DNA from: Frankia alni ACN14a
GTDB taxonomy: Bacteria; Actinomycetota; Actinomycetes; Frankiales; Frankiaceae
Assembly (NCBI RefSeq): GCF_000058485.1
Contig: NC_008278.1
Location: 4,396,962 to 4,460,961 of the forward strand
Length of the DNA: 64,000 nucleotides
Direction of reading: 5' to 3'
This document shows positions 1 to 34,611 of the stretch, in pieces. The notes below the pieces were generated by a model. That model was not told where the DNA came from, ran no database searches, and saw nothing but the letters and a program-made list of their open reading frames with translations. How positions within the stretch are numbered: position 1 is the first letter of the stretch; every line of letters begins with the position of its first letter. A program made the position numbers and the translations under genes.

Positions 1-3000
1 AGCAGGCCGGTGAACATCGAACCGGCCCCGTTCGGCAGCTCCACCGCCGCCGCCAGCAGCGGGTGAGGCGTGCCGTCCAGCCCCAGATCGGTGGGCCGCG
101 CCGGCTCGGGCGCGGGATTGAGCCAGTACCGCCTGGTCTGGAACGGGTAGGTGGGCAGCTCGACGTACCGGCCGCCGGCGAAGAACGGCACGAGGTCCAC
201 CGCCGTCCCGGCGACGTGCACTCGGCTGAGCGCCTCGCGCACGGACGCCGGCTCGGGGCGCCGCGGGTGCAGCAGGGGCACGGCGAGGACCTCGTCCACG
301 GTGTCCTGCACCATCGCGGACAGCGACCCGTCGGGGCCTAGTTCGACGAACCGGGTCGTCCCCGCGCCGTGTGCGGCGCGGACGGCGTCGGCGAACCTGA
401 CCGGGCGGCGAAGCTGCTCCAGCCAGTAGTCCGCCCCGGACATCTCCTCGGCGTCGGCGATCCGGCCGGTCAGGGTGGACACGATCGACGTCGCGGCGGG
501 GGCGAACGTGACCTCGGCGAGGACCGCGCGCCAGCGTGCGAGCACGTCGTCCATGTGCGGCGAGTGGAAGGCGTGGCTGACCGCGAGCCGGGTGGCCCGG
601 CGGCCGCCGTCCTTCCAGCGCGCGACGAGCTGGTCCACCGCGTCGGCGTCGCCGGACAGCACGACCGAGGCGGGCCCGTTGACGGCGGCGACGGCGACCC
701 GGCCGCCGGTCTCGGCGACCAGGTCCCCGGCCTCGTCCTCGGTGGCGGCGAACGCGGCCATCGCGCCGCCCTCGCGGGCGGACTGCATCAGCTCACCGCG
801 GGCGGCGACCAGGGCGCAGGCGTCGGACAGCCCCAGGATCCCGGCGACATGCGCGGCGGCCAGCTCGCCGACCGAATGGCCGAGCAGGAGGTCCGGTGTG
901 AGCCCGTGGCTTTCGACCATCCGGTACAGCGCGACCTGCAGGGCGAACAGCGCCGGCTGGGCATACCGGGTCTGGCGCAGCCGGTCGGCGTCACCGTCGA
1001 CGAGGTCGTGCAGGCGGACGCCGAGCAGCGGGTCGAGGTGCGCGGCGACCTCGTCGAAGGCCGCGGCGTAGGCCGTCGACGCCGCCAGCAGGCCCGCGCC
1101 CATGCCCCGCCGCTGGGAGCCCTGGCCGGTGAACAGCAACGCCAGCCGCTGATCGGGCTGGGCCCGCCCGCGCCTGAGCGCGGGGTGCGCGGTCCCGCCG
1201 GCCAGCGCCCGCAGCGCCGGCAGGACGGTGTCGGCGTCGACCAGCACCGCCGCGCGCTCGGTGAACTGGGTCCGGTGGCGCGCCAACGTGAACGCGACAT
1301 CGACCAGCGCGGGCGCGCCCGCGGAGGCGAGCAGGTCACCGAGGGCGCTCGCCTGCGCCTGCAGCGCCGACTCCGTCCGCGCGGACAGCAGCAGCGGCAC
1401 CGGGCCGGCGTCCACAGCCGACTCGGTCGTGTCGGGCCGGTCGCGCGTGTCGGTCGTGTCGGAGGTGTCGGAGGTGTCGGAGGTGTCGGTGGGTGCCTGT
1501 TCGAGGATGACGTGCGCGTTCGTCCCACTGATACCGAACGACGACACCCCCACCCGCCGCGGCCGACCCCCCTGCGGCCACCCCACCTCCTCCCGCAACA
1601 ACGCCACCCCCGACCCCACCCACTCCACCCGCGGCGACGGCTCCTCCACAAACAACGTCCGCGGCAACACCCCCGCCCGCAACGCCATCACCATCTTGAT
1701 AACCCCACCCACACCCGCCGCCGCCTGCGTATGCCCCACATTCGACTTCAACGACCCCAACCACAACGGCACCTCACGACCACCACCCCCATACACCGCC
1801 GCCAACGCCCCCACCTCAATCGGATCCCCCAACCGCGTCCCCGTCCCATGACCCTCCACCACATCCACCTCACCCGCCGACACCCCCGCATCCGCCAAAG
1901 CCCGCACAATCACCCGCTCCTGCGCCCGACCACTCGGCGCCGTCAACCCATTCGACGCACCATCCTGATTCACCGCCGAACCCGCCACCACCGCCAACAC
2001 CGGATGCCCCAACCGCCGCGCCCGCGACAACCGCTCCACCACCACCACACCCACACCCTCCGACCACCCCGTCCCATCCGCCCCCGCCCCGAACGACCGG
2101 CACCGCCCATCCACCGACAACCCCCGCTGCCGCGCAAACTCCACAAACATCCCCGGCGACGCCATCACCGCCACCCCACCCGCCAACGCCACCCCACACT
2201 CACCCGACCGCACCGCCCCCACCGCCAGATCCAACGCCACCAACGACGACGAGCACGCCGTATCCACCGTCAACGCCGGACCCTCCAAACCCAACGTGTA
2301 CGCAATACGACCCGACAGGACGCTGGACTGGTTCCCGACCAACAGCAGCCCTTCCAGTTCCTCGGGAACGGTGCGCAGCCGGGCGGCATAGTCGTCATAC
2401 ATCGCGCCGACGAAGACGCCGGTGTCGGTACCCCGCAACGACGTCGGATCAATCCCCGCCCGCTCCAACGCCTCCCACGACACCTGCAACATCAACCGCT
2501 GCTGCGGATCCGTCGCCAACGCCTCCCGCGGACTCATCCCAAAAAACCCCGCATCAAACTCCCCCGCCCCGTACAAAAAACCACCCCGACGCGTGTACGT
2601 CGTCCCCACCCGCTCCGGATCCGGATCAAACAAACCCTCCAGATCCCAACCCCGATCAGCCGGAAAATCACCCGTCACATCCAGACCATCCACCACCACC
2701 CGCCACAGATCATCCGGAGAAACCACCCCACCCGGATAACGGCACCCCATCCCCACAATCACCACCGGATCAGCCGAACCCGCCCGCACAGCAGCCGTCA
2801 CCACCGCCTTCTCCGCCCCGAACAGCTCGTCGAGGACGTGCTGACCGAGAACGTCGATGGTGGGGAACTCGAACACCACCGTGGCCGGCAGGCCGAGCCC
2901 GCTCAGCGCGTTGATCCGGTTGCGCAGCTCGACCGCGGTCAGCGAGTCGAAACCCAGGTCCCGAAACGCCCGGTCGGCCGCGAGGCCGGCATCGCCGTCA

Positions 3001-6000
3001 TGCCCGAGCACCGCGGCCACCTGGGCCCGCAGCAGCTCCACGACGGCTCGATGCCGGTCCCGGGGACGCTCGGCCCGCAGCCGGCCGGCCCAGCCCGCGC
3101 CAGCGTCCGCACCCGCCGCGCGACCGGCCACGGGCACCCGAACCAGGTCCGCGAACAGTGGCCGCAGCCGGCCGGCCACGGCTTCCGCCCGCAGCACCGC
3201 CTCGTCCAGAGTGGACACGACGAGGTGCGGCTCGGTGCGTCGGTCGAGGACGGCGAGCGCCCCTTCGTCGGCGACCTCTCCGACACCATGGCGGGCCAGT
3301 CGCGCGCGGTCGGCAGCGCCAAGGTGACCGGTCATCGCGCTGGCCTGCGTCCACAGCCCCCACGCGATCGCCGTGCCCGGCAGGCCCCGGGACCGCCGGT
3401 GGACCGCCAGCGCGTCGAGGAAGGTGTTGCCCGCGGCGTAGTTGGCCTGACCGGGAGCGCCGACCGTGGCGACCGCGGAGGAGAACAGCACGAAGTGGTC
3501 GAGCGCCAGATCGGCGGTCAGTTCGTGCAGGTGCCAGGCGGCGTCGACCTTGGGCCGCAGGGCATGCGCGAGCTGGGCCCCGGTCATCGCCTCGACGGTG
3601 GCGTCGTCGAGCACTCCGGCGGTGTGGACGACCCCGCGCAGCGGGCGATCGGCCGGAATGTCCGCGAGCAGGGCCGCGAGCTCGTCCCGGTCGGCGATGT
3701 CGCAGGCCGCGACCGTCACCTGGGCTCCCGCCGCGCGCAGCTCGGCGGCCAGCTCGGCCGCACCCGCTGCGGCCGGGCCGCTACGGCTGGCAAGCAGCAG
3801 GTGCGGCGGCTCGGGCTGCCCGGCCAGCCGCCGGGCGACCAGGCCGCCGAGGGCGCCGGTGCCACCGGTGATCAGGACCGTCCCGGTGAACGCCACGGCC
3901 TCGGCGTCCTCGAACGTGCCGCGGACCAGGCGGGGCACCAGCAGCTCGTCCGCGCGCACGGCCGCCTCCGGCTCGTCCACCGCGACCAGCACGGCCACCG
4001 GAGCCGGGGCGTCCACGTGGACCAGCGTGACGCGCCCTGGATGCTCGGCCGCGACGGTCCGCACCAGCCCGGTCACCGTGGCCGATGCCGGCTCGTCGGC
4101 GGCGAGCACGATCGTGAGCCGGGTGCCCGTGAGGGCCGGCTCGGCCAGCCAACGCTGAAGCAGCTCGAGCGCCGCCCGCGCACGGGCGTGCGCCTCGTCC
4201 ACCACAGGCGGGTCGTCCACCACAGGCGGGTCGTCCACCACAGGCGCCTCTGCCACCACGGCCGCGGAGCCGCCGATCGCCGCCAGCGCCACTTCTGGCG
4301 CGGCCCGCCCACCCGCGATCGCCGCGACCAGTGCGGCCACACCGTCCAGGACCTCGGGGTCGCCGGTCAGGTCGATCAGGTGGCGTGGATCGCCGGAGCC
4401 GGCGACCACCACCGCGTCCAGCTCCGTCCCGCCGGCCGGTGCGGTGGCAACGGCCGATCCGGTCACGGCGCCCGGCCGCGTCCACTCGACGTGGTACGCC
4501 GGCTCCACCGCGTGCGCCGAGACTGCCCGGGCCAGATCCCGGTGGGAGACCGGCCGGAACGCGAGCGAGTCGATCGCGCCCACCGGCGCCCCGACACCGT
4601 CCGCGAGCAGGTAGCGCACCCGGCTGTCGCCGAGCGGCTCGACGCGTATCCGCAACGCCGTCGCCGGCCCGGTCAGGCGCAGCCCCTCGAACGCGAACGG
4701 CAACAGCGGCCGGCCCGGCTCCTGCGCGCCGATGCCCGCGAGCCCCGCCACGACCGGATGCAGCGCCGCGTCGAGCAACGCCGGGTGGACCGCGAAGTCG
4801 CCGGCCAACTCGCCCGCCGCGATCTGCGCGTACACGGTGTCGCCGACGCGCCAGGCCGCGGTGAGCCCCTGAAACGCCGGACCGTAGTCGTATCCCAGGG
4901 CGAACAACCGGCCGTACACGTCGGTCAGATCGACCGGGTCGGCTCCGGCCGGCGGCCACACCGCCAGGTCACCCGACCCGTGACCGGGCCGCTCACCCTC
5001 CGCAACAGGAGCTGCGTCGGCGACGACGGCGCTCGCGTGTCGGTTCCATGCGCCGTCTGCACTCGAGCGCGCGTAGACGCCGAGTTCGCGCCGCCCGTCC
5101 GGGCCGGCCCCGCCGACGCGGACCTGCACCTGGACCGGACGCTCGGGGGTGAGCGCCAGCGGCGCGGTCAGGGTGATCCCGACGACGTCGGGGCTGCCGA
5201 CGGCGCCGCCGGCGTGGGCCGCCAGTTCGGCGAAGGCGGTGCCGGGCACCAGCACGGTGCCGAACACCCGGTGATCGGCCAACCACGACTGGGCGGTGAG
5301 ATCGATGGTCCCGGTCAGGACGGCACCGCCGTCGGCGAGCTCGACCTGCACGCCGGCCAGCGGGTGCCGACCGACGGTGAGACCCAGCCGTGACGCCTGC
5401 GCGGCGGGTACCACGGGCGTGAGCCAGTAGCGGGTGCGGTCGAAGGCGTACGTCGGCAGCTCGGGGCGCACCGCGATGGGGCGTGCCCAGGACACGGCCG
5501 CACCCGCCAGATCCGCGGCGGCCAGCGCCCGGCGGAAGGCCGCGGAGCCGTCGGTATCCCGCCGCAGGGTGGCGACGACCGCGCCGCCGACCGTGCGGTC
5601 CGCGAGGATGTCGTCGACCCCGAGGGTCAGCACCGGATGCGGGCTCACCTCGATGAACCGGTGGCAGCCGTCGTCCAGCGCCGCCCGGATCGCCGGGTCG
5701 AACCGGACCGGCTGGCGCAGGTTGCGGTACCAGTACGCGGGGTCCAGGGTCGCGGTGTCGACCCGGCCGCCGGTGACCGACGAGTAGAAGGCCACAGGCG
5801 TGGACCGCGGGCTCAGCCCGGCGAAGGTCTCACGGAGGTGATCCCGCAGCGGCTCCACATGGCTCGTGTGCGAGGCGTAGTCCACCGGGATTCGGCGGGC
5901 CCGGATGCCGGCCTGCTCGCATCGGCCGAGCAGATCCTCGAGCGCACCGGCGGCACCGGCCACGACGGTTGCCCGCGGCCCGTTGAGCGCGGCGATCTCG

Positions 6001-9000
6001 ACGTCCCCCGGGGACCGCGCCAACAGCTCGCGCACGTCGTCGGCGCCGAGCGCGATCGACATCATGCCGCCGCCACCCGCGATCCGGACGAGCGCCTTGC
6101 TACGCACAGTGATCAGGCGGGCCGCATCAGCCAGCGTCAGTGCGCCGGCGACGTACGCGGCCGCGATCTCCCCCTGCGAATGACCGACGACCGCGTCGGG
6201 CCGCACACCGCCCTCGCGCCACAGCGCCGCAAGGGAGACCATCACCGCGAACAGCACCGGCTGTACGACATCGACGCGGTCCAGTCCCGGTGCGCCCGCG
6301 TCGCCCTGCAGGACGCCGAGCAGCGACCAGTCGGTGTGCTCGGCGAACGCGCGCTCGCACGCCTCGATCTCCGCTCTGAACACCGGGGACGCCGCCAGCA
6401 GCGCCCGGCCCATCTCGGGCCACTGCGAGCCCTGCCCGGGAAACACGAACACCGTGCGCCCGGTGACCCGCTGCCCGGTGAGGACCGCGTCGGCGACGTC
6501 CCCGTCTGCCAGGCCGGCCAGCCGGTCCACGAGCGTCGTCTGGTCCTCGGCGAACACGGCGGCGCCGTGGTCGAACCGGGTCCGTGACAGCAGCGAACCG
6601 GCAACGTCCGTGCTCGTCAGCCCGGGATGCTCCCGAAGGTGGTCGGCCAGGGCCCGGGCCTGCCGGCGCAGGGCCTCGGGGTCGGGGCCGGACAGCAGCA
6701 CCGGAGGGCCGGCGACGGGGCGCGACGGCGACGGCGACTGCGGCTGCGGCTGCGGCTCGGGTGCCTGTTCGAGGATGACGTGCGCGTTCGTCCCACTGAT
6801 ACCGAACGACGACACCCCCACCCGCCGCGGCCGACCCCCCTGCGGCCACCCCACCTCCTCCCGCAACAACGCCACCCCCGACCCCACCCACTCCACCCGC
6901 GGCGACGGCTCCTCCACAAACAACGTCCGCGGCAACACCCCCGCCCGCAACGCCATCACCATCTTGATAACCCCACCCACACCCGCCGCCGCCTGCGTAT
7001 GCCCCACATTCGACTTCAACGACCCCAACCACAACGGCACCTCACGACCACCACCCCCATACACCGCCGCCAACGCCCCCACCTCAATCGGATCCCCCAA
7101 CCGCGTCCCCGTCCCATGACCCTCCACCACATCCACCTCACCCGCCGACACCCCCGCATCCGCCAAAGCCCGCACAATCACCCGCTCCTGCGCCCGACCA
7201 CTCGGCGCCGTCAACCCATTCGACGCACCATCCTGATTCACCGCCGAACCCGCCACCACCGCCAACACCGGATGCCCCAACCGCCGCGCCCGCGACAACC
7301 GCTCCACCACCACCACACCCACACCCTCCGACCACCCCGTCCCATCCGCCCCCGCCCCGAACGACCGGCACCGCCCATCCACCGACAACCCCCGCTGCCG
7401 CGCAAACTCCACAAACATCCCCGGCGACGCCATCACCGCCACCCCACCCGCCAACGCCACCCCACACTCACCCGACCGCACCGCCCCCACCGCCAGATCC
7501 AACGCCACCAACGACGACGAGCACGCCGTATCCACCGTCAACGCCGGACCCTCTAAACCCAACGTGTACGCAATACGACCCGACACCACGCTCGGCGTGG
7601 TACCGGTGAGCAGATAGCCGTCCGCGACGCCGCCGCCGCCCTCGGCAAGCCGGTATCCGTACTCGCTACCGGTCGCGCCGACGAAGACGCCGGTGTCGGT
7701 ACCCCGCAACGACGTCGGATCAATCCCCGCCCGCTCCAACGCCTCCCACGACACCTGCAACATCAACCGCTGCTGCGGATCCGTCGCCAACGCCTCCCGC
7801 GGACTCATCCCAAAAAACCCCGCATCAAACTCCCCCGCCCCGTACAAAAAACCACCCCGACGCGTGTACGTCGTCCCCACCCGCTCCGGATCCGGATCAA
7901 ACAAACCCTCCAGATCCCAACCCCGATCAGCCGGAAAATCACCCGTCACATCCAGACCATCCACCACCACCCGCCACAGATCATCCGGAGAAACCACCCC
8001 ACCCGGATAACGGCACCCCATCCCCACAATCACCACCGGATCAGCCGAACCCGCCCGCACAGCAGCCGTCACCACCGCCGCGGCCGCGGGCTCGCCGGCG
8101 GCTCCGCGCGCGTGGTCGCCGCGCAGATGGCCGACGAGCGCCTCCGCCGAGGGGTAGCTGAACAGCGTGGCCGTGGTCAGCTCGGTGTTCAGCGCGCCGG
8201 TGAGCCGGTCGCTGAGCTCGGTCATGCCGAGCGAGTCGAGTCCCAGGTCCCGGAAGGGAGCCGCCCGGTCCAGGGCCGCGGCGTCGCGGTGCCCCAGCAC
8301 CGCGGCGAGCTCCGCGAGGACCACCTGTTCGACGTCCGGCCCGGACGAGTTCGGCTCGCCCGCCACCGCCTCGACGACGGGCTCCGGCCCGAGGGCAGGC
8401 GGCGTCTCGACGGCCGGCTGCGCCTCGGCGGCGGGCTTCGGTCCGGGTGCGGGCGGGGTGCTCGCGGGGTCGGCCCCGGTCCCGAGTTCGAGCCAGTGGC
8501 GTTCGCGCTGGAACGGATAGGTCGCCAAGGCCACGCGCGGGCCACCGGGTCCGAACACCGCGTCCCAGTCCAGGCTCGCCCCGGCGACGAACAGCCGCCC
8601 GACCGCCAGGTCCAGATCGTCCTGATCACCCAGGACCGGCACGACGGCGGCGGCCCGTCCCAGGCTCGCCCGGCCCAGCCCGCTGAGCGTACGGCCGGGG
8701 CCGGCCTCCACCAGGATGGCGGCCCCGAGCTCGTGCAGCCGGTGCAGGCCCGCGTCGAACAGGACCGGGCGCCGGGCGTGCTCGACCCAGTAGTCCGCAT
8801 CGCCGGCGTCCGCCAGCTCCCCGGTCACCGTGGACACGAACGGGATCACTGGCGCACGGAACGTGATGCCGGCCAGCTCCGCGCGGAACTCCTCGAGCAT
8901 CGGTTCCATGAGCGGCGAGTGGAAGGCATGGCTGACCTCGAGCCACCGGGTGCGATAGCCCCGGTCTGCGGCCGCGGCGCGGACCGCGTCGAGCGCCGCA

Positions 9001-11130: not shown

Positions 11131-11973
11131 TCAGCGGTCCCCGTGTGCCTGCCGGTGGAGGGCCGCCACCACCACGTCGGCCACCTCCCGCGCCCGCGGC
11201 ACCAGGTAGAAATGGCCGCCGGTGAACACCCGGGACTCGAAGCCGCCGGCGGTGTGGTTGCGCCATCGCCGCGCCTCGCCGACGCTGACCCTCGGGTCGG
11301 CCGTGCCCGTCAGCACGGTGATCGGGCAGTCGACCCGCGCGCCGGGGATCGGTACGTATCCGCGCAGTGCCTCGTAGTCGGCCCGGATCGCCGGAAAGAC
11401 CATCCTGCGGAGATCCGTGTTGTCGAGCACCGCGCGGGAGGTGCCGCCCAGGGCGAGCACCTCCTCCTCCAGCGACCGGTCGTCGACGAGGATCGCCGGG
11501 TCGATCCGGATCGCTGCCGGGGCGCGGGCCGCCGACGCGAACAGCCGGACGGGCGCTGTCGGGGCGAGCAGGGCCGCCTCGAAGGCGACCAGCGCCCCCA
11601 TGCTGTGGCCGAGATAGGCCGTGGGCGTCGCGTCGTCCAGCGCGGCGAGCTGGGCCGCGACCTGCCTGGCCAGTTCCCGCAGGTCGCTGACGGCGGGTTC
11701 GTCGAAGCGGTCCAGCCGGCCGGGATACTGCACCGCCAGCAGCTCGGCACGCCCGCCCAGGCTTCTCGCCAGCGGCCGGAAAAACGCGGCCGAGCCGCCT
11801 GCGTGCGGGAAGCACACGACCCGCCCCCCGGCGCCGACACCGGTGGCGACGCCGGTGCCGGCGGCAGTGGCGATGCCGGCGGCAGTGGTGGTGCCGGCGG
11901 CAGTGGTGGTGCCAATGGTGGTGGTGAACTGTCGCAGCCACACGCCGCGGTCCGGGGCGCCGGTGATGGTCAT
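11131..11973 (-). CDS. Type II thioesterase (AbyT-type editing enzyme)
   Basis: A 280-residue alpha/beta hydrolase of the type II thioesterase family, which removes stalled or wrong acyl groups from PKS carrier proteins. The core starts at VVCFPHAGG, with the nucleophile in GHSMG (Ser124) and a C-terminal GGHFYL supplying the catalytic His. The family is usually about 250 residues; the excess is a low-complexity N-terminal stretch of Thr, Ala and Gly (about residues 17-49) made by 18-bp tandem repeats, placed before the conserved core. ATG at 11973 shares a base with the TGA of the upstream hydrolase gene (TGATG), so the two are probably translationally coupled. The PKS starts 55 bp downstream, consistent with one operon. 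Confidence 0.92.
   Translation of the reverse strand: MTITGAPDRGVWLRQFTTTIGTTTAAGTTTAAGIATAAGTGVATGVGAGGRVVCFPHAGGSAAFFRPLARSLGGRAELLAVQYPGRLDRFDEPAVSDLRELARQVAAQLAALDDATPTAYLGHSMGALVAFEAALLAPTAPVRLFASAARAPAAIRIDPAILVDDRSLEEEVLALGGTSRAVLDNTDLRRMVFPAIRADYEALRGYVPIPGARVDCPITVLTGTADPRVSVGEARRWRNHTAGGFESRVFTGGHFYLVPRAREVADVVVAALHRQAHGDR
11855..11908 (-). repeat. 18-bp tandem repeat, three units, inside the thioesterase gene
   Basis: Three near-identical 18-bp units encode Thr/Ala/Gly-rich hexapeptides before the hydrolase core. A degenerate continuation is visible on both sides. Confidence 0.85.
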
Positions 11974-13804: not shown

Positions 13805-14031
13805 GCATGCACCAGCTGGTAGATCGACTCCAGGCTCCCGGCCTCCAGCAGCGCCGGCAGGGAGATCTGGGCATCGGCATTTCTCTCCAGGATCACAAGC
13901 ACGGCCAGCAGTTGCACCGAATCCCAGCCGGGCAGCTCGTCGAGACCGAGTCCCAGATCCTCCACGTTCACGTCGAGCCCTATCTCGTCCCGCAGGAGAC
14001 CGACGAACGTGGTTCTCGTCATGGCGGCCAT
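13801..14031 (-). CDS. Discrete acyl carrier protein (AbyA3-type)
   Basis: A 76-residue free ACP with the phosphopantetheine Ser in GWDSVQLL. In tetronate clusters the separate ACP carries the glyceryl three-carbon unit that is joined to the polyketide. ATG at 14031 is chosen because GGAGGTGA sits at good spacing; a GTG at 14037 is the alternative. The gene lies 45 bp after the KAS III gene and overlaps the acyltransferase by 4 bp. In known clusters an FkbH-like gene usually adjoins it; there is none here. Confidence 0.9.
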   Translation of the reverse strand: MAAMTRTTFVGLLRDEIGLDVNVEDLGLGLDELPGWDSVQLLAVLVILERNADAQISLPALLEAGSLESIYQLVHA

Positions 14032-21753: not shown

Positions 21754-21972
21754 TCACCCGGTCGCAGACCCACCGAGCAGCGTGATCGCGGCGGCCGGGC
21801 ACAGATACTGGGCCTTGCGCAGCAGGGGCTCGTCGCCGGCCGGCCGATCCGGCTCGACGACGACCACCAGACCCTCCTCGTCCTGGTCGAAGACGTCCGG
21901 CGCCGTCGCCAGGCAGCGCCCGGCACTGATACACAGGTCGCGGTCGGCCTCGACCCGCAGCGCCGCTACCAC
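21754..21972 (-). CDS. Single-cluster [3Fe-4S] ferredoxin (AbyW-type)
   Basis: A 72-residue ferredoxin with the cluster motif C-x5-C (DLCISAGRC) and a later CPAAAI, typical of the small ferredoxins that serve actinomycete P450s. GTG at 21972 is chosen: the gene overlaps the last bases of the P450 frame, including its TAG, by 7 bp, and the length then fits the family. The partner is clearly the P450 immediately upstream. Confidence 0.9.
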   Translation of the reverse strand: MVAALRVEADRDLCISAGRCLATAPDVFDQDEEGLVVVVEPDRPAGDEPLLRKAQYLCPAAAITLLGGSATG

Positions 21973-23287: not shown

Positions 23288-25081
23288 TCAGCGTCGCGGC
23301 GGGCCGACAACGACATCGTCGGCCGACTCGGCGGTGGCCGCCTCGGCGGTGTCCTTCTGCGCGACGGCCAGGCGGGGGACCGCGGCGAGCAGCGCCTGGG
23401 TGTAGGGATGCCGGGGAGCGCCGAACACCTGCTCCGCCGGTCCCTGTTCGACGACCTGCCCCCGGTGCATGACCACCACCCGATGGCTGAGGTAGTGCAC
23501 GACGCCCAGGTGGTGGGAGATGAAGACGTACGCGACGCCCAGGCGGGCCTGCACATCCCGGAACACCTCGAGCACCTGTGCCTGGATCGAGACGTCCAGG
23601 GCCGACACCGGCTCGTCGCAGACGATCACCTCCGGGTCGGACGCGAGCGCGCGAGCGATCGCCAGCCGCTGGCGCTGGCCCCCGGACAGTGCCCTGGCCC
23701 GGGTGGGCAGGACCTCCGGTCCGAGCCCGACATGCTCCAGCAGCTGCCCCACCCGCTTCGCCCGGTCGGCGGCCGACGTCGACGACACGCGCAGCGGCTC
23801 CTCGAGGATCTGGCGGGCCGTGTAACGGGGGTCGAACGAGCCCAGCGGGTCCTGGTAGATCATCTGGACTCGCCGGCGGGCCGCGCGCCGGGCGGCGCGG
23901 TCCAGCGCGGTCCACCCGACACCGTCCACCGTGACCTCGCCGGAGTCCGGTGCGACGAGCCCCATCAGCATCCGGCCGACCGTGGTCTTGCCCGACCCGG
24001 ACTCCCCGACGAGCCCGACGGTCTCCCCCGCCCGCACGACGAAGGAGACGTCGTCGACCGCTGTCAGCCGCTGCCGGCCGGGGAGTTCGTAGGTCTTGAC
24101 GAGCCCGCGGGCCGCCAGCACCACCGCAGCCGGATCGGCGGGCACCCTCGGCGCCGGCCCGGGCGGGGGGCTCACCCGCACCGGTGCGGCGGCGACGGGC
24201 GTCGAGGGTGCCGGCGCCCCGCCGCCGTGTGTACCCAGGGCCGAGGCCGCCGCGAGCAGCTGGCGGGTGTAGGCGTGGGCGGGCGCGTCGAGCACGGTCC
24301 GGGTGGGCCCCTGTTCGACGAAGACCCCATCCCGCATCACGTAGACGTGGTCGGCCAGTTCGGCCACGACCGCGAGATCGTGGCTGATCAGCAGCATCGC
24401 CGTGCCGTCCGCCGTGCGCTCCCGCAGCAGTGCGAGCACCTGCTTCTGCACCGTCACGTCCAGCGCCGTGGTGGGCTCGTCCGCGATGACCAGATCGGGC
24501 CGTGCGGCGAGGGCGGACGCGATCAGCGCACGCTGGCGCAGCCCACCGGACAACTGGTGGGGATGCTGGCGCAGCCGGGTCCGCGGGTTCGGGATGCCCA
24601 CCTCCGCCAGCAGGCGGACGACCTCCTCCTCGACGCGGCCGCGTTCGACGGTGCGGTGCTCTCGCAACGGCTCGCCGACCTCGGCGGCGATGGAACGCAG
24701 GGGGTCCAGCGAGCCCATCGCGTCCTGCAGGACGAAGCCGATCCTGCCGCCGCGCACCGAGCGCCACTGCCGGGATCCCAGCGTGCGCAGATCGAGGCCG
24801 TCGAACGACAACGCCCGCGCGCGCACCGCCGCGTTGTCGCCGGCCAGGCCCACCAGGCTGCGGGCGGTCACGCTCTTACCGGATCCGGACTCGCCGACGA
24901 TCGCCACGATCTGGCCTCGTCGGATCTCGAAGGAGACTCCCCGCACCGCCTCCGCGACCTGCTGCTCCGGGGACGACCGGCGCTCCCGGGACGACTGATG
25001 CTCCCGAGCGAAGGAGACGCGCAGATCGCGCACCGCGAGCAACGGCTCGTCCCGCGCCGGCGGCCTGTTCGGCGCGCTCAT
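23288..25081 (-). CDS. Fused tandem ABC ATPase of an oligopeptide-type transporter (OppD-OppF fusion)
   Basis: A 597-residue protein with two nucleotide-binding domains. NBD1 (about 12-265) has GESGSGKS, LSGGLRQR and VIADEPT; NBD2 (about 320-570) has GESGSGKTT, LSGGQRQR and VIVCDEPV. Each ends with the HPYT-like oligopeptide-transporter tail (HAYTRQLL, HPYTQALL). ATG at 25081 overlaps the permease stop by 4 bp. It is the only ATPase in the window for two oligopeptide-type permease sets. The abyssomicin cluster carries an equivalent system (AbyF), but the substrate is unknown. Confidence 0.94.
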   Translation of the reverse strand: MSAPNRPPARDEPLLAVRDLRVSFAREHQSSRERRSSPEQQVAEAVRGVSFEIRRGQIVAIVGESGSGKSVTARSLVGLAGDNAAVRARALSFDGLDLRTLGSRQWRSVRGGRIGFVLQDAMGSLDPLRSIAAEVGEPLREHRTVERGRVEEEVVRLLAEVGIPNPRTRLRQHPHQLSGGLRQRALIASALAARPDLVIADEPTTALDVTVQKQVLALLRERTADGTAMLLISHDLAVVAELADHVYVMRDGVFVEQGPTRTVLDAPAHAYTRQLLAAASALGTHGGGAPAPSTPVAAAPVRVSPPPGPAPRVPADPAAVVLAARGLVKTYELPGRQRLTAVDDVSFVVRAGETVGLVGESGSGKTTVGRMLMGLVAPDSGEVTVDGVGWTALDRAARRAARRRVQMIYQDPLGSFDPRYTARQILEEPLRVSSTSAADRAKRVGQLLEHVGLGPEVLPTRARALSGGQRQRLAIARALASDPEVIVCDEPVSALDVSIQAQVLEVFRDVQARLGVAYVFISHHLGVVHYLSHRVVVMHRGQVVEQGPAEQVFGAPRHPYTQALLAAVPRLAVAQKDTAEAATAESADDVVVGPPRR

Positions 25082-25980
25082 CGGGTCAGCCCCTGGATCC
25101 GCTCCCCCACCACGGTGACGGCGAGCACGGCGATGGTGAGCGCCAGGCCGGGGAAGACCGCCGGCCACCAGGCCACCTCGAGGTAGTTGCGGCTGCCAGC
25201 CAGCATCGCCCCCCACTCGGCGGTCGGCGGCCGGGGGCCCAGCCCGACGAAGCTCAACGACGAGCTCGCCACGATCATGCTGCCGAGACCGACGGTGGCG
25301 AGCGCGACGATCGGTCCGACGGTGTTCGGGACGATGTGGCGCACCACCACCTGCAGTTTGCTCCATCCCAGCCCATGCGCGGCCTCGACGTAGTGACCGG
25401 ACCGGACGCGGATGACCTCTGCCCGGGTCACCCGGGCGAAGCCGGGAATGCCAACGACCGCCAGGCCCACCGCGGCGTTCCTGCTGCCGGTGCCCAGGAC
25501 GGCAACGACGAGAAAGACCAGGAGCAGGCCGGGCACCGACATGACGACGTCGAGCAGTCGGCTGATCACCTGGTCGACCACGCGGTTCGACTGGGCGGCG
25601 AGCACCCCCACCACGACGCCGCCGACCAGCGACAGCAGGGACGCCCCGACCCCGATCAGCAGCGAGGGACGGGCGCCGTACACGATGCGCGCGTAGAGGT
25701 CACGGCCGTTCTGGTCGGTGCCGAACCAGTGGTCCCCGCTCGGCCCCCGCAGCGTGTGGCGCAGGTCGGCGGCGTTCGGGTCCACCCCGGTGAACAGCCC
25801 GGGAGCGGCCGCGACGCAGGCCAGCAGGAGCAGTACCGCGATCCCGAGCCCGAACCCGACCACGGATCGCCGACGGGGACGGCCCGCGCCGACGCGCCCG
25901 GGGATCAGCCCGATCCCCGTCTCGGCAAGCTCGGCGTCGAGCGGCTGCGACGCCCCGGTTGATCTCTGTGTGACTGCCAT
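25078..25980 (-). CDS. ABC transporter permease, DppC/OppC-like
   Basis: A 300-residue inner-membrane permease with an N-terminal membrane segment (about 40-62), the typical FGTDQNGRDLYARIVYGAR motif, and about five further helices with the EAA loop YVEAAHGLGWSKLQVVVRHI. GGAGGGGAG precedes the ATG at 25980. It follows the DppB-like gene by 16 bp and overlaps the ATPase gene. Confidence 0.93.
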   Translation of the reverse strand: MAVTQRSTGASQPLDAELAETGIGLIPGRVGAGRPRRRSVVGFGLGIAVLLLLACVAAAPGLFTGVDPNAADLRHTLRGPSGDHWFGTDQNGRDLYARIVYGARPSLLIGVGASLLSLVGGVVVGVLAAQSNRVVDQVISRLLDVVMSVPGLLLVFLVVAVLGTGSRNAAVGLAVVGIPGFARVTRAEVIRVRSGHYVEAAHGLGWSKLQVVVRHIVPNTVGPIVALATVGLGSMIVASSSLSFVGLGPRPPTAEWGAMLAGSRNYLEVAWWPAVFPGLALTIAVLAVTVVGERIQGLTR

Positions 25981-25996
25981 CGGTCTCCCCTCCTCG

Positions 25997-27007
25997 TCAG
26001 GTCCGCGTCCGCGGGTCGATGAACCAGGTGAGGATGTCGACCAGGACGTTGATGAGCACGAATGTCGTCGCCGCGACGAGGACGATCCCGATCACGACGG
26101 GCATGTCCCGGTTCTGGACGGCGGACAGCACCAGCCGGCCCATCCCGCGGCGCGAGAACACCGTCTCGATGATGATCGCCCCACCGATCAGGGAGCCGGA
26201 GATCCAGCCCAGCAGCGCCGTGGCCGGCAACAGGGCGTGCCGCAGCGTGTGCCGCAGGCGCACCGCGCCCTCGCTGATCCCCCGGGTGCGGGCCGTCACC
26301 ACGAAGGGCTCGTCCAGCGCACGCAACATCCCCTCGCGCAGTACCCGGGTGGTCACCGCCACCGGCCCCGCGGCCAGCGCGACGGTGGGCAGCACGAGCC
26401 CGGCGGGAGACGACGACCCGATGGCGGGAAACCAGTGCAGGGAGAAGGAGAACACCGTCAGCAGGACAAGCCCCAGCCAGAACGGCGGAATGGCGACGAC
26501 CAGCGATTCCACGGCGGCGACCACCGAGCGCAGCCACCGGCGGCGGGTGGCGCTGAGCGCCGCGAACAGCACCGAGGCGACCACCGTGGCCACGACCGTC
26601 GTCGCCACCAGGACGAGGGTGTCCGGGAGCTGCTCGATGATCGCTCGCCACACCGGCTTGCGCAGCATGTAGGACTCACCGAAGTCGCCCCGGACCACCC
26701 GGCCGAGGTAGGCGAAGTACCGCACCGGCAGCGGGTCGTCCAGCCGGTACCGCGAGATGAGCTCTGCCCGCACCTCCGGGCCGGCCTGGGACTGGGCGAG
26801 CATCACGTCGACCGTGTTGCCGTGCATCAGCTCGAGCAGGAGGAAGGTCGCCGTCACCGCTCCCCACAGCACCGCCACGGAGGCCAGCACCCGGGTCAGA
26901 ACCAGCCGGGCCAACGGGGCGCCGAGGCGGCGGCGGCGCGCGCCGCCGTCCGGCGTCTCGTCGTGGGCCTCGGCCCCCGGTGCCGTCGAGGTCAGGAGCT
27001 CAGCCAT
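25997..27007 (-). CDS. ABC transporter permease, DppB/OppB-like
   Basis: A 336-residue permease with six predicted membrane helices, an N-terminal TM after a basic stretch, and the family motifs FGESYMLRKPVW and the EAA loop around VVTARTRGISEGAVRLRHTLRHA. ATG at 27007 is the first conserved start and lies inside the end of the substrate-binding-protein gene (16-bp overlap); longer in-frame extensions run antisense to conserved residues of that gene. Confidence 0.93.
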   Translation of the reverse strand: MAELLTSTAPGAEAHDETPDGGARRRRLGAPLARLVLTRVLASVAVLWGAVTATFLLLELMHGNTVDVMLAQSQAGPEVRAELISRYRLDDPLPVRYFAYLGRVVRGDFGESYMLRKPVWRAIIEQLPDTLVLVATTVVATVVASVLFAALSATRRRWLRSVVAAVESLVVAIPPFWLGLVLLTVFSFSLHWFPAIGSSSPAGLVLPTVALAAGPVAVTTRVLREGMLRALDEPFVVTARTRGISEGAVRLRHTLRHALLPATALLGWISGSLIGGAIIIETVFSRRGMGRLVLSAVQNRDMPVVIGIVLVAATTFVLINVLVDILTWFIDPRTRT

Positions 27008-28647
27008 GTGTCGTAGAAGATCGGGCTGCCGTCGATGGCGAAGGTGACATCCCGGACCGCGGAGCGGGCCGCGACCGTGGACAGGGGCGAGTAGATCGGG
27101 AACGATGCGGCGTCCGCGGTGAGCTGGCGCTGGGCCTGGCCGTAGACTCGCAGCCGTTCTGTCACGTTGTCGCTGGCCGCGGCCTGCAGGAAGAGCTTGT
27201 CCAGCTCGCTGTTGGCGGTTCGGGAGATGTTGTTGGCCAGCCCTCGGGTGGGCGAGGGAACGTTGGCCGAGCCGTAGAGGACCTTGAGAACCTCCGGGCC
27301 GGGGGAGGCGAAGTTCGTGTCGGCGAGCTCGTAGTCGGCGGACAGGATCCGGTCGACGTACGTGCCCTCGTCGATGTTCTCCTCGACGATCTCGATCCCG
27401 AGCTCCTTGGCGGCGGCCTGAATCTGCACGGCCAGATCCTCGATGGACGGGTCGGACCACAGGTGGCGCAGCGTCAGGCGCGCGCCGTTCTTCGTCCGGT
27501 ACCCCTTGGCGTCACGCGCCGTCCAACCCGCCTGGTCGAGCAGCCGGGCGGCCTCGGTGGGGTTGTAGGCGTACGCCGACTCCTGGGACTTGTCGTAGCC
27601 GAACGTCGTCGACGTCAGGACCCCGCGAGCGACGGGGTAGGCGCCGAAGTAGACGTTCTTGACGATCTGGGCCCAGTCGATCCCCGCCCGAAAGGCCTTG
27701 CGGACGGCAACGTCGGCCAGCACTCCCTTCTCGGTGTTCGGGAAGTACGTGTAGGGGATGCCGGGGAACGGCACCGAGAACAGGTGGAAGCCGTCGGTGG
27801 TACGCAGCTCACGCAGGTTCACCGGGGACAGGTTGGTGATCGCGTCGACCTGCCCGCTGGTCAGCGCTCCGTAGCGGGCGGAGTTGTCGGGTGCGACCCG
27901 GATCCGGATCGCGTCCAGACGGGCGGGGCCGGTGTGTCCCGCGCCGGGCGGTGCCCAGGCGTAGTCGCGGTTGCGGACGTACTCGATCCCCTGCTGCTGA
28001 CGGTAGCCGCCCGGGCTGGCGAACGGCCCGGTGCCGACGATGGTGGCACACAGCGCGTTGTTGCCCCGGGTGAGGGTCGCCGGCGACTCGATCCCGAGAT
28101 TCGGGGTGGCCAGCGCGTCCAGCAGGGCCGAGGAGGGCTCCTTGAGCCGTATCTCCACGGTGTGCGCGTCGATCGCCCGCGAGGACTCGTAGCCGGTGAG
28201 GAGACTGGCCGCAAGCAACGACTTGGTCTTCGGGTTGACGATGTGTTCCAGGTTCGCCACCACCGCCGCGGCGTCGAAGCGTGCACCGTCGGTGAACCGC
28301 ACGTCGTCCCGGAGGGTGAAGGTGTAGGCCTTGTGGTCCGCGGCGATGGTCCAACGACTGGCCAGCCAGGGTTTGATCGCCCCCTTGGGGTCCTGGTACA
28401 CCAGCGAGTCCACGATCGGCCGGGAAACCACGCGGGCGGCGGCGCTCGGACTCTGATGCGGGTCCAGGCAGTCGGGCTCCCTGCCGATGGCGAGGTTCAG
28501 CGTTCCACCGTCTCGGGGGGCTTCCCCGTCCGCGGAACTACCCGATCCGCCGGCGCAGGACGATGCCAGCGCCAGGACGGCGCCGAGCGCGACCGCCGGC
28601 ACCACCCGTCTTCTCGGGGCCGCACGAAACCGAACTCCGGAATTCAT
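26992..28647 (-). CDS. Oligopeptide-type extracellular solute-binding lipoprotein (SBP family 5)
   Basis: A 551-residue secreted lipoprotein. A basic N-region and hydrophobic core end in the lipobox LASSC, then a Gly/Ser linker and the family 5 fold (GGTLNLAIGREPDCLDPH; YTFTLRDDVRFTDGARF; GIDWAQIVKNVYFG). It delivers the substrate to the permeases encoded next. It is the first gene of a four-gene operon. ATG at 28647 fits the signal peptide. Confidence 0.93.
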   Translation of the reverse strand: MNSGVRFRAAPRRRVVPAVALGAVLALASSCAGGSGSSADGEAPRDGGTLNLAIGREPDCLDPHQSPSAAARVVSRPIVDSLVYQDPKGAIKPWLASRWTIAADHKAYTFTLRDDVRFTDGARFDAAAVVANLEHIVNPKTKSLLAASLLTGYESSRAIDAHTVEIRLKEPSSALLDALATPNLGIESPATLTRGNNALCATIVGTGPFASPGGYRQQQGIEYVRNRDYAWAPPGAGHTGPARLDAIRIRVAPDNSARYGALTSGQVDAITNLSPVNLRELRTTDGFHLFSVPFPGIPYTYFPNTEKGVLADVAVRKAFRAGIDWAQIVKNVYFGAYPVARGVLTSTTFGYDKSQESAYAYNPTEAARLLDQAGWTARDAKGYRTKNGARLTLRHLWSDPSIEDLAVQIQAAAKELGIEIVEENIDEGTYVDRILSADYELADTNFASPGPEVLKVLYGSANVPSPTRGLANNISRTANSELDKLFLQAAASDNVTERLRVYGQAQRQLTADAASFPIYSPLSTVAARSAVRDVTFAIDGSPIFYDTWLSS

Positions 28648-29586: not shown

Positions 29587-31077
29587 ATGACCACAGCCAC
29601 CAGTCCGCAGGGCGCCGCAACGGCGGCGCCACCGGGCGGATCGGGCCTGGCCCTGACCGCGATTGTGGGAGCGGAGTTCATGCTCCAGGTCGACGGGATG
29701 ATCGTGAACGTCGCTCTGCCCGACACGCAGAGCGATCTCGGTCTCTCGACGACCTCGGCCTCCTGGGTGCTCAACGGCTTCTTCCTCGCCTTTGGCGGGC
29801 TCCTGCTCCTCAGCGGGCGGCTCGGCGACGTGTTCGGCCACCGCCGGCTGTTCCTTCTCGGCATCGGCCTGGTCGCCGGCGCCTCGCTGCTCGCAGGCCT
29901 CGCGCCCAACTTCGGCGTGCTGCTGACCGGGCGGGTACTGCAGGGCGCGGGCGCCGCCCTCGCCGGCCCCACCGGTCTGGCCCTGCTCTCCATGGTGTTC
30001 CAGGGCGAGCGCCAGCAACGCGCCTTCGGCCTCTACTCGACGATCACCGGTCTCGGCGCCGCCACCGGCCTCATCCTCGGCGGCATCCTCACCGGCGGGC
30101 TGGGCAGCTGGCGCTGGTGCCTGCTGGTCAACGTTCCCTTCGGGCTCATCATCCTGGTGATCGCCCTGCGATCACTCGGAACGGCCGCCGACGGCGCCCG
30201 CAGCCGGTCCCTGAGCCTGCCCAGCGCCGCGCTCGTCACCGCAGGCCTCACCGCGCTCGTCTACGGTCTCGTGCAGGCGGCCGACCGTGGCTGGGGCGAC
30301 CTGTGGACGGTCGTGCCGCTCGCGATCACCGTCGTGGTCGCGGCCGCGCTGCTCGTCGTGGACCGCCGGGCCCCCGAGCCGCTGCTGCCCGGGCGGATCT
30401 TCACCAACCGGACCCGCGTCGGCGGGTTCATCAACCTGCTGCTGCTGTCGTCCGTGCTCGGCGGGTTCGTCTTCTACCTGTCCCAGTACCTGCAGACCAC
30501 GCTGGACTACGGCGCCCTGCGCACCGGCCTGGCGATTCTCCCCTTCGGCCTCGCGCTGCTGGTCACCACGCAGCTCCTCACGAAGTGGCTCAGCGGTCTC
30601 GGCCTCACGACCCGGGGCACCATCGGGCTCGCCCTGCTCGCCCTCGGCGTGGCCTGGTTCATCCGCCTCGATGCGGACAGTGCCTACGCGGAGGGGGTGC
30701 TGCCCGGCCTCGTCGTCATGGGCCTCGGGGTCGGACTCGCGATCATCCCGCTCAACATGATCATTCTGTCGACCAGCCGTCCAGAGGACGTCGGCATCAC
30801 CGCGGGCATCCTGCAGGCCGCGCTGACCGTCGGTGGCAGCATCGGCCTGGCGGTGCTGCTCATCCCGTTCAACGCCGGTGGCCGCCCGGTCGCGGAGAAC
30901 ATCAGCACCGTCTTCACCTGGGCCACCGTCGACTGCGTCGCCGGGTTCGTCGTAGCCGTGCTGTTCTGGTTCGGTCCCGGCCTGCGTCCATCCGCCACCC
31001 GCACGTCCTCCCCCGAGGCGACGGCCCCCGAGCCGCCCGCCCCCCGGGAGCCCGCGGCGGTCGAGTCCCGGTCCTGA
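29587..31077 (+). CDS. MFS drug exporter, DHA2/EmrB-QacA type (14 TM; AbyD-type)
   Basis: A 496-residue membrane transporter with 14 predicted helices. The first carries the DHA2 signature region (FMLQVDGMIVNVALP), followed by GGLLLLSGRLGDVFGHRR (motif A) and GRVLQGAGAALAGPTGLALL (motif C-like). This family exports drugs by proton antiport and is the usual self-resistance pump of antibiotic clusters. CGGAGG precedes ATG at 29587. Two copies of a palindromic operator overlap its promoter, and the same element precedes the TetR gene, so TetR repression lifted by product or intermediate is likely. Confidence 0.95.
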   Translation: MTTATSPQGAATAAPPGGSGLALTAIVGAEFMLQVDGMIVNVALPDTQSDLGLSTTSASWVLNGFFLAFGGLLLLSGRLGDVFGHRRLFLLGIGLVAGASLLAGLAPNFGVLLTGRVLQGAGAALAGPTGLALLSMVFQGERQQRAFGLYSTITGLGAATGLILGGILTGGLGSWRWCLLVNVPFGLIILVIALRSLGTAADGARSRSLSLPSAALVTAGLTALVYGLVQAADRGWGDLWTVVPLAITVVVAAALLVVDRRAPEPLLPGRIFTNRTRVGGFINLLLLSSVLGGFVFYLSQYLQTTLDYGALRTGLAILPFGLALLVTTQLLTKWLSGLGLTTRGTIGLALLALGVAWFIRLDADSAYAEGVLPGLVVMGLGVGLAIIPLNMIILSTSRPEDVGITAGILQAALTVGGSIGLAVLLIPFNAGGRPVAENISTVFTWATVDCVAGFVVAVLFWFGPGLRPSATRTSSPEATAPEPPAPREPAAVESRS

Positions 31078-31411: not shown

Positions 31412-32404
31412 TCAAAGGGCGGCAGCGGCCTTGGCGAGCAGCTCGTAGGAGCGAATCCGCTGCTCCAGCCCGGGGATCTGCGAAAGGGCGAAGAACTCGT
31501 CCGCACCGGATTCACGCACCAGCGCCTCGAACCTCGGCGCCACGGTGGCCAACGAACCCACGAGCTGCGGGTCGATCCGCTCCCGGCGGAAGCTTTCCTC
31601 CGCGCTGCTGAAGTGGTGCCGCCGCGTCTCCTCCTCGGTCGGCAGCAGGGTGTCGGGGTCGGTCGTGCGCAGAATGATCTGGCCGAGGACGAACGCGTCG
31701 GCCAGCGAGTGCGCACGGTCGTCCGAGTCGGCGAGCACCACGATGGCGGACACCGCGCCGCGTGGATGTTCCAGGTGCACCGACGGCCGGAAGGCCTTGC
31801 GGTAGGCGTCGAGCGCGACGGGCGCGAGCCCCGGCACGATCGTGTGCGCAAAGACGTACGGCAGACCGCGCGCCCCCGCGAACGCGGCGCTGCTCGGGCT
31901 GGAGCCGACCAGCCAGAACTCGGGCGGGACCGCCGGCTCGGGAACCGCGCGTGCCTGCACGGGCCCGCCTGCGCGGTGGAAATACCCGACGAGCTCGTCG
32001 AGTTGGGCCGGGAAGCCACGCGGACGCGGGTCCCCCAACCGAGCGCCCACGGCGGCCGAGCCCCCCACAGCCCGGCCGATCCCGAGGTCGACCCGCCCGG
32101 GGTGCAGGGACCCGAGCACGCCGAACTGTTCAGCCACGTCGTACGGCGCATGGTTGGGCAGCAGCACGGCGCCCGAGCCGACCCGGATCGTGCCGGTGGC
32201 CGCGAGGATCTGCCCGGCAAGCACGGCGGGAGCCGAGGTGGCGAGCGCGGGCGTGCTGTGATGTTCGGCGACCCAGTACCGGCGGTAGCCCAGCGCCTCG
32301 ACCGCGCGGGCGAGATCCACGGTGTCCCGCAGCGCGTCGGCGGCTGTGCCGGACCGCCACACCGGCACCGTGTCGTGCACCGAGACGAAGGATGGTTCGA
32401 CCAT
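31412..32404 (-). CDS. Luciferase-like flavin-dependent monooxygenase (LLM class; AbyE-type)
   Basis: A 330-residue TIM-barrel oxidoreductase of the bacterial luciferase-like, MsnO8-type family. Landmarks are YWVAEHHSTP after strand 2, IRVGSGAVLLPNHAP, the LHPGRVDLGIGRA block, and FWLVGSSPSSAAFA. It uses reduced flavin supplied by another enzyme; the abyssomicin cluster encodes a similar enzyme (AbyE) of uncertain role. CAGGAGAGG precedes ATG at 32404. An operator-like palindrome lies 34 bp upstream, so it probably shares control with the MFS and TetR genes. Confidence 0.9.
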   Translation of the reverse strand: MVEPSFVSVHDTVPVWRSGTAADALRDTVDLARAVEALGYRRYWVAEHHSTPALATSAPAVLAGQILAATGTIRVGSGAVLLPNHAPYDVAEQFGVLGSLHPGRVDLGIGRAVGGSAAVGARLGDPRPRGFPAQLDELVGYFHRAGGPVQARAVPEPAVPPEFWLVGSSPSSAAFAGARGLPYVFAHTIVPGLAPVALDAYRKAFRPSVHLEHPRGAVSAIVVLADSDDRAHSLADAFVLGQIILRTTDPDTLLPTEEETRRHHFSSAEESFRRERIDPQLVGSLATVAPRFEALVRESGADEFFALSQIPGLEQRIRSYELLAKAAAAL

Positions 32405-32673: not shown

Positions 32674-33900
32674 ATGACCAACCCCACGCCGACGCTCCCG
32701 GACGCTCCGCCGTATCCCCGGCCTCGTGCGTGTCCCTACCAGCCGAGCCGCGAGTACCAGGAACTCGGCGAGCGGGGGCCGATGAACCGCGTCACCCTGT
32801 TCGACGGCGCAACGGCGTGGTTGGTCACCGGCCACTCGCACTCCCGCCGCCTGCTCGCCGACCCGCGGGTCTCCGCGGACCGGTCCCGCCCCGACTTCCC
32901 CGTCGTGCTCCCCCGCTTTGAGGCCGACGTGTTCAAGCCCCTGGCCATCATCGGGTTCGACCCGCCGCAGCACGGTTTGCAGCGCGGCCTGCTGACGGCG
33001 GACTTCAGCATGCGCTCGGTGCGCGCCAAGCGGGAATCCATCGAGCGGCTGGTCGAGTCGCTCGCCGACCGGATGCTGGCCGCCGGGCCGCCCGCCGACC
33101 TCGTCCTGGACTACTCCCTGCCGATCCCGTCGATGGTGGTCGCGGACCTGCTGGGCGTCCCCTACGCCGACCACCAGTTCTTCGAGGACGCCACCGTCCG
33201 GCTGCTGCAGGCGACCACCCCTCAGGGCGCGGAGGCCGCCGGTGAGGAGCTGCTGAACTACCTGGACGAGCAGATCCGGCTCCGGGAGCGCGATCCCGAC
33301 GACACCCTGTTGTCCCGGCTGGGCGAGCACGTCCACGACGAGGGGCTGGGGCGCGACATCATCAACAAGATCGCGCTGGCGTTGCTCGTCGGCGGGCACG
33401 ACACGACCAGCCAGATGATCGCCCTCGGCGTGGTGACGCTGCTGGACCACCCCGACCAGCTCGCCATCCTGCGGTCGGACCCCTCGGCGCTACCCGGTGT
33501 CGTCGAGGAACTGCTGCGCATGGTGTCGGTCACCGATCTGGCGGGCGTCCGGGTCGCCACCGAGGACGTGGAGATCGACGGACAGGTGATCGCGCGGGGC
33601 GAGGGCCTCATCTTCTGCAACTCGATGGCGAACCGGGATCCTGCGGTCTACGACGCGCCCTACGAGTTCGACGTGCGCCGCTCGGCGGACGACCCGCCGG
33701 CCACCCGGCGGCACCTGACCTTCGGCCACGGCCCCCACCAGTGCATCGGGCGCAATCTCGCCCGGATGGAGCTGGAGATCGCCTACCGCGTCCTGTTCGA
33801 GAAGATCCCGAACCTGCGGCTCGCCGTGCCGCGCGACGAGCTGCCCATGCGCCACGGCAGCACCATGCAGGGAGTCCACCGGCTCCCCGTCACCTGGTAG
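32674..33900 (+). CDS. Cytochrome P450, second cluster P450
   Basis: A 408-residue P450: I-helix VGGHDTTS, K-helix EELLRM, haem loop FGHGPHQCIG with the thiolate near Cys357. The N-terminal block (CPYQPSREYQELG, FDGATAWLVTG) and overall pattern show it is a paralogue of the P450 at 21966. GAGGAGGGC precedes ATG at 32674. No ferredoxin gene is adjacent, so it may share the one at 21754. The stop codon region is duplicated in a 19-bp tandem repeat (33894-33931), with no effect on the product. A SARP-style repeat lies upstream. Confidence 0.93.
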   Translation: MTNPTPTLPDAPPYPRPRACPYQPSREYQELGERGPMNRVTLFDGATAWLVTGHSHSRRLLADPRVSADRSRPDFPVVLPRFEADVFKPLAIIGFDPPQHGLQRGLLTADFSMRSVRAKRESIERLVESLADRMLAAGPPADLVLDYSLPIPSMVVADLLGVPYADHQFFEDATVRLLQATTPQGAEAAGEELLNYLDEQIRLRERDPDDTLLSRLGEHVHDEGLGRDIINKIALALLVGGHDTTSQMIALGVVTLLDHPDQLAILRSDPSALPGVVEELLRMVSVTDLAGVRVATEDVEIDGQVIARGEGLIFCNSMANRDPAVYDAPYEFDVRRSADDPPATRRHLTFGHGPHQCIGRNLARMELEIAYRVLFEKIPNLRLAVPRDELPMRHGSTMQGVHRLPVTW

Positions 33901-34002: not shown

Positions 34003-34611
34003 GTGGAGGACGCCGCGCCGTACATCGCCCACCGCCCCAGGCGGGCCGACGGCATCCGCAACTACGACGCGATGCTGGCCGCCGCGCGCAAGGCCTTCGA
34101 GACCGCGGGCGCCGACGCCTCCCTGGAGGACATCGCGGCGCAGGCGGGGGTCGCGATCGGCACCCTCTACCGGCACTTCCCGACCCGCGCGGCGCTCGTC
34201 GAGGCCACCACCCGTGACGGGCTCGCCTCGTTGATCTCCTATGCCGACGAGGTCCGCGCCTCGCTCCCCCCGTTCGAGGCACTGCGCTCCTGGATGGGCC
34301 AGGCCATCCAGCACTTCAGCACCTTCCGGGGCCTCGTGAGCATCCTCACCCGCAGCATGTACGACGACGGCACTCCCTCCCACGCCGCCTGCGCAGCCAT
34401 GCACGGCAGCGGTGCACGGCTGCTGCGGGCCGCCCAGGACGCCGGCCAGGTCCGTGCGGACCTCACCCCCGACGAGCTGTTCGACCTGCTCACCGGCGCG
34501 GCCTGGGTCCGGGAGAACTCCCCCGCGGGGCCGGACGGCAGCGTGCGCTTCCTCGAACTCATCCTGGCCGGGGTCAGCACCCGCGGCGCGGGTACCGCGG
34601 AATCTGCATGA
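34003..34611 (+). CDS. TetR-family transcriptional repressor (AbyC-type)
   Basis: A 202-residue TetR regulator. The N-terminal helix-turn-helix is clear (AARKAFETAGADASLEDIAAQAGVAIGTLYRHFPTRAALVEA in two parts), with a ligand-binding C-terminal domain rich in Ala/Leu helices. GTG at 34003 is preferred because AGGAGGGG stands at good distance; GTG at 33982 would overlap the likely operator. The shared palindrome upstream of this gene, the MFS exporter and the luciferase-like gene makes it the probable local repressor. Confidence 0.9.
   Translation: MEDAAPYIAHRPRRADGIRNYDAMLAAARKAFETAGADASLEDIAAQAGVAIGTLYRHFPTRAALVEATTRDGLASLISYADEVRASLPPFEALRSWMGQAIQHFSTFRGLVSILTRSMYDDGTPSHAACAAMHGSGARLLRAAQDAGQVRADLTPDELFDLLTGAAWVRENSPAGPDGSVRFLELILAGVSTRGAGTAESA

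Follow-up and report, generated by a model that had tools for sequence, protein, structure and literature searches.

Abyssomicin C is an inhibitor of bacterial folate synthesis, and to our knowledge the abyssomicins isolated to date are from marine and soil strains. Two described systems are used here for comparison: the aby cluster (abyssomicin C, Micromonospora maris AB-18-032) and the abm cluster (neoabyssomicin/abyssomicin 2, Streptomyces koyangensis SCSIO 5802). Propionate is reported to be incorporated at modules 2 and 5 by the abm polyketide synthase (PKS; PMC5819245) and at modules 5 and 6 by the aby PKS, as described in the accessible part of Gottardi et al. 2011 (PMC3625739). The ketoreductase (KR) of module 5 is present in both systems, yet it is reported to be inactive (abm, PMC5819245; aby, same part of PMC3625739). 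That part of the paper also reports a cluster, FRAAL4069-4097, in Frankia alni ACN14a, and contains no acyltransferase (AT) or module analysis of it. In the accessible text of Iglesias et al. 2020 (PMC7176366) the type 2b cluster layout, in which the A1-A5 operon lacks A2 and everything except A2 is upstream of the PKS, is restricted to Frankia.

The window, i.e. the whole stretch of 64,000 nucleotides that was analysed, corresponds to C1:4,396,962-4,460,961 (NC_008278.1) of the single-contig F. alni ACN14a genome (7,497,934 bp). Genes were called over 144 kb, and the called proteins were scanned with Pfam to obtain the gene inventory. By these analyses the cluster spans from the AbyA2 gene to a TetR gene, from about -23,833 to 34,611 in window coordinates (C1:4,373,128-4,431,572, 58.4 kb). 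Its left edge lies beyond the start of the window because the PKS genes and AbyA2 continue leftward. Thus, of the extent 1-34611 proposed in an earlier note, the right part holds, whereas on the left a part of the PKS and AbyA2 fall outside the window. The genes are the following (negative positions are to the left of the window).
-23833 to -21947 (from C1:4373128), minus strand: AbyA2/FkbH glyceryl-ACP synthase, 628 aa (genome search; FkbH TIGR01686, 1.4e-90, 305 bits)
-21871 to -18746, minus strand: PKS B3, 1041 aa, module 7 (gene calling, Pfam)
-18699 to -8242, minus strand: PKS B2, 3485 aa, modules 5 and 6 (gene calling, Pfam)
1 to 11075 in the window, true end at -8223, minus strand: PKS B1, 6432 aa, four modules (loading, 2 to 4; gene calling, Pfam)
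11131 to 11973, minus strand: AbyT-like type II thioesterase (Pfam; GHSMG)
11973 to 13052, minus strand: AbyA5-like eliminating hydrolase, FrsA-like (Pfam; solved AbyA5 structures 4ywf/5no5 at 2.6e-108)
13049 to 13804, minus strand: AbyA4-like acetyltransferase with 2-oxoacid dehydrogenase E2 fold (Pfam; HRVIDG)
13801 to 14031, minus strand: AbyA3-like discrete ACP, 76 aa (Pfam; GWDSV)
14077 to 15093 (ORF to 15108), minus strand: AbyA1-like KAS III, predicted to join chain and glyceryl-ACP (Pfam; Cys in SGCSGAVQ)
15224 to 15991 (start uncertain; ORF opens at 16144), minus strand: AbyI-like SARP regulator (Pfam)
17087 to 19939, plus strand: AbyH-like LAL/LuxR regulator (Pfam; 48-49% to the Actinokineospora clusters)
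20037 to 20582, plus strand: AbyU/AbmU-type spirotetronate [4+2] cyclase, AOC_like (PF18678, 6.7e-42)
20579 to 21601, plus strand: aldo/keto reductase of AbmJ/AbsJ type (Pfam; 63% to S. abyssomicinicus CHI39, 67-73% to Actinokineospora)
21754 to 21972, minus strand: ferredoxin (Pfam)
21966 to 23153, minus strand: AbyV-type P450, predicted epoxidase (AbyV structure 7QAN, 4.2e-91; 71-73% to Actinokineospora)
23288 to 28605, minus strand: AbyF1-F4-like oligopeptide-type ABC importer with fused ATPase, two permeases and binding protein (Pfam, Actinokineospora comparison)
29587 to 31077, plus strand: AbyD-like MFS exporter (Pfam, Actinokineospora comparison)
31412 to 32404, minus strand: AbyE-like luciferase-family monooxygenase (Pfam; 64-69% to Actinokineospora)
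32674 to 33900, plus strand: second P450 (Pfam; counterpart in the A. auranticolor cluster, 58%)
34003 to 34611, plus strand: AbyC-like TetR regulator (Pfam; 66-68% to Actinokineospora)

Gene calling and Pfam bore out every gene listed in the earlier note at its place and added one, the aldo/keto reductase. Together with the genome search they recovered AbyA1-A5, an AbyB1-B3-like PKS, U, V, D, E, F1-F4, H, I, C and T. The E-values of the family matches range from about 1e-4 for the 76-aa ACP down to below 1e-100; these values and the gene-for-gene conservation of the block in other genera show that chance is not an issue. The layout is exactly that of type 2b, with A1, A3, A4 and A5 contiguous, no A2 among them, and A2 as the only gene on the downstream side of the PKS. 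The inventory also matches that of FRAAL4069-4097 (most aby homologues, F1-F4 beside an MFS gene, TetR, monooxygenase, P450), and in the accessible part of Gottardi et al. (PMC3625739) no difference from the locus was found, so that the two appear to be the same. We are highly confident that this is the complete, type 2b abyssomicin-family spirotetronate cluster of ACN14a that is already in the literature. The earlier note had considered a new member of the class likely: membership of the class stands, but the cluster has been on record for ACN14a since 2011 and its layout was classified in 2020. What is new here is the product prediction, i.e. the methyl pattern and structure, as the locus itself is already known. 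No tRNA or Rfam features were found within the window.

Between A1 and A3 there is no A2 gene, and its absence was suspected until the genome search located the FkbH gene beyond the PKS. With it the tetronate set is whole: KAS III, FkbH, discrete ACP, E2-type acyltransferase and eliminating hydrolase, all within the window except A2. The motif check found the expected motifs in A1-A4 and the thioesterase. The KAS III protein shows mostly 50-77% identity to KAS III proteins of actinobacterial tetronate clusters. A second FkbH-domain gene at C1:6796383-6797360 (open frame 734 aa) possibly belongs to another pathway using glyceryl- or alkoxymalonyl units.

Similarity of the 20037-20582 protein to AbyU, proposed in the earlier note as a check, was seen at the levels of Pfam, sequence and predicted fold. 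Among solved structures it matches by sequence AbmU (4e-11) and AbyU (2.3e-8). The predicted structure is an eight-stranded barrel, its first 40 residues being of low confidence, and a fold search with this model returned AbyU (TMt 0.88, E 2e-11), Cyc15 and AbmU among the best folds. AbmU contains a salt bridge between Glu47 and Arg150 (PMC11318650); the aligned residues, Glu52 and Arg159, are invariant in an alignment of 15 sequences. This cyclase and the tetronate genes, which match abyssomicin enzymes best (the AbyA5 structure at 2.6e-108), uphold the spirotetronate (abyssomicin-type) class named in the earlier note.

No named cyclase relatives were confirmed by scanning the collection, and the KAS III protein was used as the query instead, which yielded 73 named loci. 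The nearest ones (74-77%) are in Microbispora triticiradicis and two Actinokineospora strains, followed at about 60-65% by Streptomyces monomycini, Frankia sp. AiPa1, S. abyssomicinicus CHI39, which produces abyssomicin I, and others. In Actinokineospora auranticolor YU 961-1 and Actinokineospora sp. NBRC 105648 nearly all cluster genes are orthologous to those of ACN14a (48-77% identity; U 63-70%, A1 74-77%), although these clusters have the type 2a layout, in which the tailoring genes are downstream of the PKS and not upstream as in ACN14a. In the cyclase tree the ACN14a protein forms a firm group with the Microbispora and Actinokineospora cyclases (100/99), which is joined by CHI39 at 87/82 with long branches. 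The Frankia sp. AiPa1 locus (8799-9873) has two adjacent AOC-like cyclase genes beside its AbyA1 gene, a paired-cyclase arrangement.

The PKS has the plan of the abyssomicin type, with three genes that encode seven modules: a KSQ-type loading module, three modules with DH-KR, an unreduced module 5, a DH-ER-KR module 6 and a minimal module 7. The loading module is KSQ-AT(malonyl)-ACP with DTAQS in its KS, and all other KS domains have Cys-His-His. Module 2 is KS-AT(methylmalonyl)-DH-KR-ACP, modules 3 and 4 are KS-AT(malonyl)-DH-KR-ACP, module 6 is KS-AT(methylmalonyl)-DH-ER-KR-ACP, and module 7 is KS-AT(malonyl)-ACP. Module 5, KS-AT(methylmalonyl)-degenerate DH-ACP, lacks a KR, and its DH motif is eroded to HRLGERTLLS. 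Modules 3, 4 and 7 share with the loading module the malonyl AT motif HAFH; modules 2, 5 and 6 carry the methylmalonyl motif YASH. Both Actinokineospora clusters share YASH at modules 2, 5 and 6 and the lack of KR in module 5; in PKS B2 of ACN14a and in its two Actinokineospora counterparts the KR query matches module 6 alone. The KR loss is therefore shared by a clade, and the predicted chemistry is unchanged. What can be read directly from the sequence is the gene content, the order of the modules, the AT signatures, the loss of the KR and the cyclase family.

The ACN14a cluster resembles abm in the seven-module plan, the aldo/keto reductase, the ferredoxin and the methylmalonyl ATs of modules 2 and 5, but its module 6 AT is also methylmalonyl-type, and the module 5 KR, dead in abm, is gone. 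With aby it shares the core genes, the module plan and the methylmalonyl ATs of modules 5 and 6; in contrast to aby it has a methylmalonyl module 2 (predicted extra C12 methyl) and the aldo/keto reductase, and the gene order differs. Counterparts of abmK, L, M, N and Z, and of AbyR and AbyZ, were not seen in the ACN14a cluster; that no AbyZ-type flavin reductase could be recognised among the predicted genes counts against the abyssomicin-type reading, as does the lack of a reported product in the literature searched.

AbyA1-A5 are common to abyssomicin clusters and to those of larger spirotetronates of the chlorothricin/kijanimicin/wychimicin type, which have a decalin and a longer chain, and in the wychimicin strain Actinocrispum wychmicini the order is also A1-A3-A4-A5 with no A2 between. 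Such a product is nevertheless most improbable, as the PKS has just seven modules with the reductive pattern of aby and abm, the nearest cyclases belong to clusters with the same small PKS, and a second, decalin-forming cyclase was not seen among the cluster genes. The cyclase could alternatively perform another pericyclic reaction, like Tsn15, in the biosynthesis of a polyether-type or simple tetronate (tetronasin/RK-682 type). Tsn15 and PloI4 do match the cyclase model in the fold search, but by sequence they are weaker (0.18 and 0.02), and the Glu-Arg salt bridge, which according to a cyclase-library paper is missing in Tsn15/Tmn8, is kept here (E52, R159). Taking into account that a polyether-type epoxide hydrolase was not seen either, we consider this very unlikely.

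The loss of the module 5 KR, which leaves the PKS one domain short of aby and abm, could also mean that the cluster is a relic whose product is no longer made. There is scarcely any likelihood of this: the KR in question is reported to be inactive in aby and abm anyway, two intact Actinokineospora clusters show the same loss, no internal stops interrupt the genes, and every KS, AT, ACP and A1-A4 motif that was looked for is intact.

For an abyssomicin-type product, which would contain a spirotetronate and an 11-membered carbocycle, YASH at modules 2, 5 and 6, which unites the aby and abm patterns, predicts methyls at C12, C6 and C4. Type IIA abyssomicins (M-X, ent-homoabyssomicins) carry methyls at C4 and C12 (PMC6100094) and at C6 (PMC11318650). 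The predicted C4/C6/C12 pattern would be that of type IIA and would fit neither aby nor abm; this comparison draws on the review PMC6100094 and, on the cluster side, on the AT motifs. The signals for stereochemistry differ: the tree places the cyclase with CHI39, whereas the fold search slightly favours AbyU. The grouping with CHI39 leans, short of proof, towards type II stereochemistry, and a type II (15S, 'enantiomeric') spiro centre may be weakly suggested by the sequences.

From homology and by analogy with the genetics of aby and abm, we infer the following route. From an acetate starter, with methylmalonate added at modules 2, 5 and 6, the seven-module PKS would build CH3-CH=C(CH3)-CH=CH-CH=CH-CO-CH(CH3)-CH2-CH(CH3)-CO-CH2-CO-S-ACP, in which C7 would stay a ketone because module 5 is without ketoreductase. 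AbyA2 would put a glyceryl unit onto the AbyA3 carrier, and AbyA1 would condense this unit with the chain to a hydroxymethyl tetronate, which would be acetylated by AbyA4 and converted by AbyA5, through elimination, to the exocyclic methylene. The spiro ring would then arise when the 20037 cyclase joins the diene tail to the exomethylene in an intramolecular [4+2] reaction. The C11-C12 alkene would be epoxidised by the AbyV-like P450, with ring closure through oxygen, and further tailoring may be carried out by the aldo/keto reductase, the second P450 and the flavin monooxygenase. The most far-reaching reading, held tentatively and with somewhat less than even confidence, is that F. alni, a nitrogen-fixing root symbiont, produces a type IIA-like abyssomicin that has methyls at C4, C6 and C12 and new exact tailoring, via a PKS that discarded the dead module 5 KR kept by marine and Streptomyces relatives, and that the compound might act in or around the alder nodule. 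The final structure and its putative type II stereochemistry are predictions as well.

As a locus discovery this adds little, because the cluster has a published record, and in the literature that could be searched no product of it is reported. With the module prediction, a search for the product can target a specific mass and methyl pattern. The host of the complete cluster is a root-nodule symbiont with a known genome sequence and a published transformation system, which makes a role of such compounds in symbiosis testable. Heterologous expression in S. albus Del14 is a practical route, because salicylic acid and fradiomycin, which are also cryptic products of ACN14a, were obtained in that host (PMC6950998).

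Some features in and around the cluster were also recorded. The roughly 0.9 kb at 16145-17086 contains no convincing gene, is flanked by the divergent SARP and LAL genes, and is likely the control region of the cluster. Paralogues of the oligopeptide-type binding protein (F1) are encoded at C1:367113-368684 (42%) and C1:4832115-4833713 (48%); the former agrees with a second, aby-like transporter locus that the accessible part of Gottardi et al. 2011 (PMC3625739) places elsewhere in the genome. Directly after the cluster, the minus strand of window 34886-44602 encodes a tandem trio of SnoaL-like proteins and a pair of ABC permeases together with a binding protein (36% to F1 of the cluster). It also encodes an NRPS-like protein of 925 aa with adenylation, carrier and thioesterase domains, as well as an FMN-dependent alpha-hydroxyacid dehydrogenase. 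Taken together, this resembles a small biosynthetic cluster of its own. Further right, 49799-55991 is a catabolic-looking run with a DUF7064/7065 protein, an APH-like kinase, a P450 and an aldehyde dehydrogenase.
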